Assembly (NCBI GenBank): GCA_024638325.1
Contig: JAHEKM010000007.1
Span: 1 to 47,055 of the forward strand
Length of the DNA stretch: 47,055 nt
Source: Gemmatimonadota bacterium
GTDB taxonomy: Bacteria > Gemmatimonadota > Gemmatimonadetes > Longimicrobiales > Gaopeijiaceae
Direction of reading: 5' to 3'
In this document: positions 3,795 to 6,017 of the stretch, in pieces
Numbering within the stretch: position 1 is the first letter of the stretch
How the letters are laid out: the number at the start of each line of letters is the position of its first letter
Program-made: the position numbers and the translations under genes
The notes under the pieces: generated by a model
What the model was told of the DNA's origin: nothing
Seen by the model: the letters and a program-made list of their open reading frames with translations, nothing else
Databases searched by the model: none

Positions 3795-4667
3795 ATGACT
3801 CCCCAGGCCCAGAAGGACGAGCTCGGAGCCCACGTCTCCGCCGAGGGCGGCGTTCAGCACGCCCCTGGCCGAGCCAAGGCCATCGACGCCGTCGTGCTCC
3901 AGCTCTTCACCAAGCAACCGAGCCGCTGGGCGGATCCCAGGGTGGACGCCGAGTCGGCCGCCTCCTTCTCGAAGGAGCGCAAGCGTCACGGCATCGTCGT
4001 CGCGGGCGCTCACGACTCGTACCTCATCAACCTGTCGTCGCCCGACCGCAGGCTTTGGCGGATGTCACAGCGCTCGTTCGCGTCCGAGCTGGAGCGCTGT
4101 GCGGCCCTGGGCTTGGACTTCCTGGTGACGCACCCGGGAAACGCCACCGACGGCGACATCGATGCTGGCATCGCCCGCAACGCGGACGGCATCAGCGAGT
4201 GCCTGGAGGCCGTCGAGGGTCCCGCGCGCGTGCTTCTGGAGCTGACCGCCGGGGCGGGCACGAGTGTCGGTGGCTCCTTCGAGAACCTCCGCGCGATCCT
4301 GGACGCGATCCCGCAGGAGCAGCGCGGACGTGTGGGTGTGTGCTTCGATACGTGTCACGCGTACAGCGCCGGATACGATCTGGTCGATGACTACGACGGG
4401 GTGTGGACGCGATTCGACTCCGTGATCGGCCTCGACCTTCTGGGCCTGATCCACCTGAACGACTCCAAGCATCCGCTCGGTTCGCACAAGGACCGGCACG
4501 AGACGATCGGAGAGGGCACGCTCGGCGCGGAACCGTTCCGGCGGCTCATGACCGACGACCGGCTGCGGAACGTGCCCAAGGTCTTGGAGACGCCGAAGGG
4601 GGACGATCCGGTCGCCGCGGACACGGCCAACCTGGAACTGCTGCGCGGCTTTCGGGCTTCGGGCTGA
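3795..4667 (+). CDS. nfo: Deoxyribonuclease IV (apurinic endonuclease, AP endonuclease family 2)
   Basis: Translation LGAHVSAEGGVQHAPGRAKAIDAVVLQLFTKQPSRW...LLELTAGAGTSVGGSFENLRAI...GVCFDTCHAYSAGYDL...LIHLNDSKHPLGSHKDRHETIGEGTLG; start set to ATG 3795 inside the longer ORF. Confidence 0.95.
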   Translation: MTPQAQKDELGAHVSAEGGVQHAPGRAKAIDAVVLQLFTKQPSRWADPRVDAESAASFSKERKRHGIVVAGAHDSYLINLSSPDRRLWRMSQRSFASELERCAALGLDFLVTHPGNATDGDIDAGIARNADGISECLEAVEGPARVLLELTAGAGTSVGGSFENLRAILDAIPQEQRGRVGVCFDTCHAYSAGYDLVDDYDGVWTRFDSVIGLDLLGLIHLNDSKHPLGSHKDRHETIGEGTLGAEPFRRLMTDDRLRNVPKVLETPKGDDPVAADTANLELLRGFRASG

Positions 4668-4709
4668 GCACGCCCGACCGTTGGCCTGTCCCGCGCTTGG
4701 GCGAGCGTC

Positions 4710-4715
4710 TATATT
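4710..4715 (+). promoter_or_regulatory. Putative -10 box TATATT for the structured RNA
   Basis: TATATT ends 7 nt before the first base of the 12-bp closing stem of the RNA candidate; no convincing -35 at canonical spacing. Confidence 0.45.
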
Positions 4716-4721
4716 CGGTTG

Positions 4722-4873
4722 GCACATCGGAGGGCTCGTTTATTGAGCCAACAAACCGAAGCCGGGACTGACTCCTGGGAACGACGCTAAGCCCCCACCG
4801 AGGGGAAAGCGGCAACTCTCGGGGAGGTCACCAGATGTTCATCCCGGGCTTCAATAATTCCCCTTCGGTGTGT
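4722..4873 (+). ncRNA. Structured small RNA, 6S-like architecture (family assignment tentative)
   Basis: Ends pair over 12 bp (CACATCGGAGGG 4723-4734 with CCCTTCGGTGTG 4861-4872, two G.U pairs); internal stem GAAGCCGGGA 4758-4767 / TCCCGGGCTTC 4842-4852; small hairpins GGCTC-GTTTATT-GAGCC and CCCC-ACCGA-GGGG; lies in a long intergenic gap with an upstream TATATT. Confidence 0.5.
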
Positions 4874-4973
4874 ATGCGGGGGCCGACGCCTTCCCACCAC
4901 GTTGTGGTGCGGGCGCCGGCCCTTCGCTTCTTGGAGACCGGTCGTCGCGCTCCGAGCGCGAGGGCCCGAAGCA

Positions 4974-5402
4974 ATGGGAATCGACATGGCGGTCGTACGA
5001 GCCACCCGCTTGGTGCATTTCAGCGCCGCGCACCGGCTGTATCGAGAGGACTGGTCGGACGAGCAGAACGCCGAGGTCTTCGGCGACTGCGCCAACCCGA
5101 ACTGGCACGGTCACAACTATGAGGTCGAGGTGACCGTCGAGGGGCCGGTCGATCCGGAGACTGGGTTCGTCATGGACCTGAAGGCGCTCAAGGATCTGGT
5201 CGAGCGCCGGGTCGTGTCCGACGTCGACCACAAGAACCTCAACACTGAGGTCGCGTGGCTCGAGGGACTGAACCCGTCCACGGAGAACGTGGCCGTCGCG
5301 ATCTGGGACAGACTCGCCGACGGCCTGCCGGACGGTATCCGGCTCGCCAAGGTCCTACTGAGGGAGACCCCGAGAAACTGGGTCGAGTACACGGGAGAGT
5401 AG
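4974..5402 (+). CDS. 6-pyruvoyl/6-carboxy-tetrahydropterin synthase family protein
   Basis: VRATRLVHFSAAHRLYRED...FGDCANPNWHGHNYEVEVTVEGPVDPETGFVMDLKALK...VDHKNLN...ENVAVAIW...LRETPRNWVEYTGE; CxxxxHGHNY zinc/catalytic motif. Start could be 4974 or 4986. Confidence 0.93.
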   Translation: MGIDMAVVRATRLVHFSAAHRLYREDWSDEQNAEVFGDCANPNWHGHNYEVEVTVEGPVDPETGFVMDLKALKDLVERRVVSDVDHKNLNTEVAWLEGLNPSTENVAVAIWDRLADGLPDGIRLAKVLLRETPRNWVEYTGE

Positions 5403-5405
5403 ACG

Positions 5406-6017
5406 ATGAGTGACGTGGCTGTGGGATCCCCCTCGGGTGTGGACCTGTCGGGCACCTCCTTCGAGGACCTCGTGGCGGAGATGATCCGTCGACTGGGGGA
5501 CGACCCGGAGCGGCCCGGCATGATCAAGACGCCCCAGCGCGTGGCCGAGTCGATGCGCTTTCTCACCAAGGGATACGACGAGACGCCACTCGTGGTGCTG
5601 GGCGACGCGCTGTTCGCGGAGACGCACAACAACATGGTGCTCGTGAAGGACATCGAGCTCTACTCGCTCTGCGAGCACCATCTGCTGCCCTTCTTCGGCA
5701 AGGCGCACGTAGCCTACATCCCGGGCGCCAAGATCGTCGGGCTCTCGAAAGTCGCGCGCCTCGTGGAGGTCTTCGCACGGCGGTTCCAGGTGCAGGAGCG
5801 GCTCACGGAGCAGATCGCGCAGGCGCTCTGGGACACCACGGAGCCACAGGGCGTAGCGGTGGTCGTGGAGGCCTATCACCTCTGCATGATGATGCGCGGC
5901 GTGGAGAAGCAGAACTCGAAGACGATCACGTCGGCCATGCGGGGTCTCTTCCTCTCGGACCAGCGCACGCGCGACGAGTTCCTGCGCCTGACGACGAGCG
6001 ACCACCGCCCGCTGTGA
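5406..6017 (+). CDS. folE: GTP cyclohydrolase I
   Basis: [26 protein letters not shown]...[56 protein letters not shown]...[24 protein letters not shown]. Confidence 0.97.

Follow-up and report, generated by a model that had tools for sequence, protein, structure and literature searches.

A free-standing RNA gene on the forward strand of the window (the whole 47,055-nt stretch of Gemmatimonadota DNA analysed here), with nfo, PTPS and folE as its neighbors on the same strand, is very probably the 6S RNA (ssrS) gene of the Gemmatimonadota, judging from the sequences of its homologues: a divergent member of a known family. In bacteria, 6S RNA mimics an open promoter and thereby plugs RNA polymerase; it is a global regulator of transcription. 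The preliminary description of this DNA had proposed a 6S (SsrS) RNA from layout; that proposal is now supported by the coincidence of our models with Rfam matches, a reciprocal match to E. coli ssrS, zapA synteny, and the RNA's own promoter and terminator-like hairpin. The RNA is ~155 nt long. Its parts and neighbors are listed below; the neighboring genes were identified by Pfam (PF01242, PF01227, and PF01261 for PTPS/QueD, folE, and nfo, respectively).

3795-4667, + strand: nfo, upstream neighbor
4686-4715, + strand: putative promoter, with -35 CTGTCC at 4686-4691, an 18-nt spacer, and -10 TATATT at 4710-4715
4723-4872, + strand: 6S RNA homologue, body between the ends of the outer closing stem (model match 4716-4878)
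4723-4734, + strand: outer closing stem, 5' arm CACATCGGAGGG, pairing with 4861-4872
4740-4749, + strand: helix P2, 5' strand UUAUUGAGCC, pairing with 4847-4857
4740-4752, + strand: predicted product-RNA footprint of 13 nt, placed by register with E. coli ssrS and RF00013
4750-4763, + strand: central bubble, 5' strand AACAAACC-GAAGCC, able to pair with 4847-4852 as the collapse helix once the footprint is masked
4764-4830, + strand: apical arm and terminal hairpin (helices 3-6), at the position of the 6S -35-like region
4831-4846, + strand: central bubble, 3' strand, unpaired in the consensus
4847-4857, + strand: helix P2, 3' strand GGCUUCAAUAA, common to P2 and the collapse helix
4861-4872, + strand: outer closing stem, 3' arm CCCTTCGGTGTG, from alignment covariation
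4878-4924, + strand: intrinsic-terminator-like hairpin GGGGGCCGACGCC...GGCGCCGGCCCTT, directly 3' of the RNA
4974-5402, + strand: PTPS/QueD, downstream neighbor, starting at about 4974, outside the RNA
5406-6017, + strand: folE, after PTPS

Homologues linking the window RNA to 6S RNA

Scanning 4640-5000 and the whole window with cmscan at E<=10 returned only chance matches to mammalian lncRNAs and no match to the Rfam 6S model, RF00013 (gathering score 46.4 bits). Run on the window's own genome, RF00013 gave one chance match elsewhere (13.6 bits, contig C99). Because the window sequence has no RF00013 match even at this permissive threshold, membership rests on a chain of homologues. The Rfam search found no other family, which leaves the preliminary family call standing.

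Within the window's order, RF00013 gives weak but nearly full-length matches, with two loci (L042 and L043) at 26 bits; the RNA at these loci shares the motifs of the window RNA and lies upstream of PTPS-folE. Over 300 genomes of the phylum, RF00013 reaches E<=0.1 in 28 and passes its cut-off in three; many further homologues have full-length RF00013 matches below threshold. Two of the loci above the cut-off, L046 (56.6 bits) and L047 (53.3 bits), belong to other families of the phylum. We used two covariance models, R1, built only from 37 relatives of the window RNA, and R2, built from 67 sequences from Gemmatimonadota only; their E-values are rough, coming from a short calibration. A full-length R1 match lies in the same place at 31 of the 32 RF00013 loci, L046 and L047 among them. 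The strongest RF00013 match of the phylum scan (L045:1501-1694, minus strand, 62.5 bits) probably comes from a contaminant contig. It is unlike the phylum's own 6S RNA, and we set it aside because neither R1 nor R2 gives a meaningful match to it, because its contig is 3.2 kb long, and because its genome (G322) has an R1 match.

The reciprocal search points the same way. R2, run without filters on the E. coli ssrS locus together with L045 (5.5 kb in all), gave E. coli ssrS as its best match, in register, at 23.0 bits, with the next match at 8.6; it covers 1493-1657, compared with the annotated 1484-1666. On a genome scale this match would by itself be marginal. R1 alone also puts E. coli ssrS first, at 12.8 bits.

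Gene order provides a further link. In three genomes of an outlying family, f11 (G094, G087, and G089; loci L048/L152, L052, and L153), the RNA lies in the order zapA-RNA-rny, and in a genome of family f10 (G324, L047) in the order zapA-RNA-ymdB, with the identities of ZapA, RNase Y, and YmdB backed by Pfam. The E. coli order is zapA-ssrS-fau, and the spacing is almost equal to that in the basal Gemmatimonadota genomes with zapA. The zapA-upstream neighborhood is thus found in four basal genomes; the window's family has nfo-PTPS-folE instead.

The RNA is found throughout the phylum. Searched as DNA against 60 related genomes, 4690-4900 gave strong matches across the family and in a second family of the order; of the 300 Gemmatimonadota genomes scanned with R1, 289 have the RNA, nearly always as a single copy. 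We also searched 85,462 named species genomes for a core motif, TTGAGCCAAY-N3-7-GAAGCCGGGACTG; 60 of the 61 records carrying it are titled Gemmatimonadetes/Gemmatimonadales/Gemmatimonadota, Gemmatimonas, or Longimicrobiales. The Gemmatimonadota-type motif is also borne by L122 (PBPM01000090.1), titled Rhodospirillaceae bacterium RS361, probably a misbinned or mislabelled contig.

As expected of a 6S RNA, this free-standing gene, normally single-copy and clade-wide, has a putative promoter and a terminator-like hairpin of its own that can be read from sequence. The -10 box that the preliminary description had assigned to the RNA is present, TATATT at 4710-4715, and transcription is predicted to start near 4722. 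This -10 box is good and the -35 box, CTGTCC, is weak; in relatives the -35 is TTGAC-like at a similar distance (TTGACC-17-TATAAT in L044, TTGACC-17-TAGATT in L042 and L043). In most of the 67 aligned members, sigma70-type boxes (typically TTGAC-17-TAnnnT) end 0-10 nt upstream of the point where the model begins; the closing stem is followed at once by a strong hairpin, and a T-run often comes next. The T-run is clean (TTTTTTT) in L013-L015, and the U-tract after the window's hairpin is poor (CGCTTCTTGG). The terminator-like hairpin at 4878-4924 was absent from the preliminary description.

Conserved fold and potential collapse helix

Folded as a single strand, 4710-4880 reaches -67.9 kcal/mol (z = -2.78 against dinucleotide shuffles; 3 of 200 shuffles were as good). 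The alignment of 37 relatives supports a rod made up of an outer closing stem, P2, a central bubble, and an apical arm. Its consensus structure has 45 pairs, and 93.5% of cells are paired across the relatives. Both-sided changes occur in 25 of the 45 pairs compared with 16.2 in shuffles, and the covariation score is 0.341 compared with 0.188 (none of 500 shuffles was as high), while pairings slid out of place score 0.07-0.14. The changes on both sides fall in 9 of 13 pairs of the outer closing stem, 5 of 10 pairs of P2 (where 93.7% of cells are paired), and 7 of 8 pairs of apical helix 4. These data show the layout of 6S RNA: a closing stem, a large central bubble, and an apical stem within ~150-200 nt, with covariation.

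Most of the structure proposed from the window sequence alone holds up. The letters cited there are all in place, including TATATT and both arms of the closing stem, GGCTCGTTTATTGAGCC (4733-4749), GAAGCCGGGA (4758-4767), CCCCACCGAGGGG within the apical stem, and TCCCGGGCTTC (4842-4852), where the hyphens are bulges. The proposed arrangement of closing stem, open center, and apical stem is borne out by the 37 relatives; the stems covary, so that the alignment gives no ground for rejecting it. The hairpin drawn in the bubble (GGCTC/GAGCC) is not conserved, as only 14 of 37 relatives keep all five pairs, and helix P2 together with the collapse helix should take its place. We also considered a small hairpin of the kind that other 6S RNAs have in the 3' bubble strand. 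By eye it looked likely in several members, but its mean stem in families f1 and f2 is 2.19, compared with 2.20 in shuffled letters; we leave it unclaimed because it is no more frequent there than in shuffled letters.

With E. coli 6S RNA (SsrS, RF00013) the RNA shares a rod built of closing stem, central bubble, and apical arm, the UGAGCC.A motif at the 5' edge of the bubble, where the E. coli product RNA starts, the GG-UUCA partner on the 3' side, zapA upstream in basal members, and a single copy as the rule. It differs in that the window RNA is shorter (~155 nt vs 183), its outer closing stem is short, its family falls below RF00013 detection, and PTPS-folE rather than fau lies downstream. 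A predicted collapse helix replaces the extended 3'-bubble hairpin described in gamma-proteobacterial 6S RNA.

In B. subtilis 6S-1 and Aquifex aeolicus 6S RNA, polymerase copies the 5' bubble strand and the product RNA unwinds P2, whose 3' strand then forms the central bubble collapse helix with the distal part of the 5' bubble (PMC8876501). The same switch is open to the window RNA. Its 3' strand GGCUUC can pair either in P2, on the GAGCC side, or with GAAGCC at 4758-4763, which is at least 90% conserved in families f1 and f2. With the 13-nt footprint masked, 5.81 collapse-helix pairs are expected instead of 3.4, compared with 0.92 when the bubble letters are shuffled; 61 of 66 sequences lie above their own control, with kin sequences counted as independent. 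In a permutation test, the collapse helix scored -12.58 kcal/mol compared with -11.97, with none of 300 as low, a modest gain. Because related sequences are not independent, we weight the masking test above the permutation test.

In families f1 and f2, the P2 and collapse conformers are nearly isoenergetic (mean cost 1.5 and 1.9 kcal/mol), and 16 of 37 members reach their energy minimum in either constrained form. For the window RNA itself, the fold of lowest energy is the collapsed conformer. Given these near-equal energies and the collapsed minimum of the window RNA, the fold of the free state is uncertain. The collapse helix differs from that of B. subtilis 6S-1 and Aquifex in being GC-containing, conserved in f1 and f2, and, in the free RNA, almost equal to P2 in energy. 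It differs also in that the PTPS-linked type of family f5 rebuilds the pairing with other letters, AAGUCCU/AGGGCUU; L046 and L052 keep the pairing too.

These elements suggest how the RNA may work, by analogy with the 6S family. A housekeeping-sigma promoter of its own would drive the RNA, whose rod with a central bubble mimics an open promoter; it would fill the active site of the housekeeping RNA polymerase holoenzyme and damp transcription when nutrients are scarce. When nutrients return, polymerase would copy the 5' bubble strand from opposite C4752 into 5'-GUUGGCUCAAUAA-3', the predicted product RNA, probably with GTP as its initiating nucleotide, as in 6S-1. C4752 aligns with the E. coli U44 position in GAGCCGAU; U44 is where the E. 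coli product RNA starts. In cultured Gemmatimonadota, product RNAs complementary to the UUAUUGAGCCAAC homologue would begin across from the final letter of GAGCCNN(C/U). The 5' strand of P2 is probably the downstream duplex and would hold most of the template. Product RNA would unwind P2, in which UUAUUGAGCC pairs with GGC-UUCAAUAA with one bulged U; the freed GGCUUC would then pair with GAAGCC of the distal 5' bubble, and the RNA would be released. Polymerase binding, product-RNA synthesis, and nutrient-linked timing would all follow the pattern of the family.

We consider it rather unlikely that the phylum's 6S RNA is already bistable ahead of product-RNA synthesis, with the near-equal energies of P2 and the collapse helix, both conserved, leaving part of the free RNA closed and non-binding. 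If it is, the binding-competent share could be regulated by temperature, by a protein, or by transcription through the PTPS-folE leader position, and the active and the buffered form would have been divided between copies in families that have two or three.

Gene neighborhood, extra copies, and other readings

In most members a terminator-like hairpin separates the RNA from PTPS or folE, encoded downstream on the same strand. The RNA could thus be a cis-acting leader of PTPS-folE, a riboswitch or attenuator through which a pterin, folate, or preQ1-type ligand would act on the hairpin at 4878-4924, as the preliminary description had allowed. This association breaks down in several members, however, including all those linked to zapA: L023 adjoins cytochrome b, L025 a TonB receptor, and L044 and L162 tRNA-Met, L048, L052, and L153 sit in zapA-rny and L047 in zapA-ymdB, and in some genomes with two or three copies just one is PTPS-linked. 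THF and preQ1 riboswitches are alike only in downstream gene content (PTPS, folE); Rfam gave no riboswitch family at E<=10, only the chance lncRNA matches, and members exist without PTPS or folE. As the RNA is preceded by its own promoter in most members and is found away from PTPS-folE in several, we consider a leader very improbable. The RNA might also be of the Ms1 type, binding core polymerase without sigma rather than the holoenzyme. Ms1 is polymerase-associated, shares the general 6S-like layout, and is missed by Rfam-type searches outside close relatives; which form of polymerase is bound cannot be computed (PMC9130861). Yet Ms1, described from Actinobacteria only, adjoins HAD hydrolase genes (PMC9130861), a synteny absent here, while the bubble register shared with E. 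coli ssrS and RF00013 (UGAGCC.A...), the zapA synteny, and the conserved product-RNA/collapse-helix logic favor 6S RNA and leave an Ms1-type RNA hardly credible.

A 6S RNA gene is also compatible with read-through into PTPS-folE, by which 6S transcription would feed tetrahydropterin and folate synthesis. The weak U-tract behind the window's hairpin and the pterin/folate linkage conserved in most families point to it, as does E. coli, where fau (5-formyl-THF cyclo-ligase) comes after ssrS. The linkage is lost, however, in several families and in extra copies, and many relatives have strong T-runs; we regard read-through as possible but doubtful.

A second copy is present in the window's assembly (G000:C108:1237-1432, L032/L155), 85% identical and also preceding PTPS-folE, whose proteins are 84% and 81% identical. 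Because the window copy is closer to that of another genome (G001, 91%), the copy on C108 is probably not a paralogue but comes from a sibling species whose contig was binned here. Two or three 6S-like copies occur in genomes of families f3 and f5: G240 (L051/L156, L073/L150), G289 (L049/L148, L158), G038 (L149, L160, L162), G046, and G054. One copy in these genomes is linked to PTPS(-folE) and the others are free-standing. In f5 the PTPS-linked bubble reads AAGUCC and the free-standing one GAAGCC, reminiscent of 6S-1 and 6S-2 of B. subtilis. Further 6S-like copies or weak matches (L044:1649-1722, L159, L161; families f3 and f2) lie directly beside a tRNA-Met-like gene, possibly reflecting an insertion-site preference or shared transcription.

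A very probable 6S RNA across the Gemmatimonadota

Our literature search found no paper joining 6S RNA with Gemmatimonadetes or Gemmatimonas; the surveys of Wehner 2014 and Barrick 2005 lay outside its scope, and an earlier mention is possible. The new member belongs to a known family, but the standard model overlooks it almost everywhere in this phylum: of 300 genomes, at least 289 carry the RNA, yet RF00013 exceeds its cut-off in three, one of them through a probable contaminant contig. The alignment provides a seed that would extend the Rfam 6S model, and the zapA-linked, PTPS-folE-linked, and duplicated genes form a natural series for tracing the relocation of a polymerase decoy gene. Release through the collapse helix becomes testable in a lineage where that helix is strong and conserved, and the known spread of 6S RNA now takes in an entire phylum of bacteria common in soil and water.
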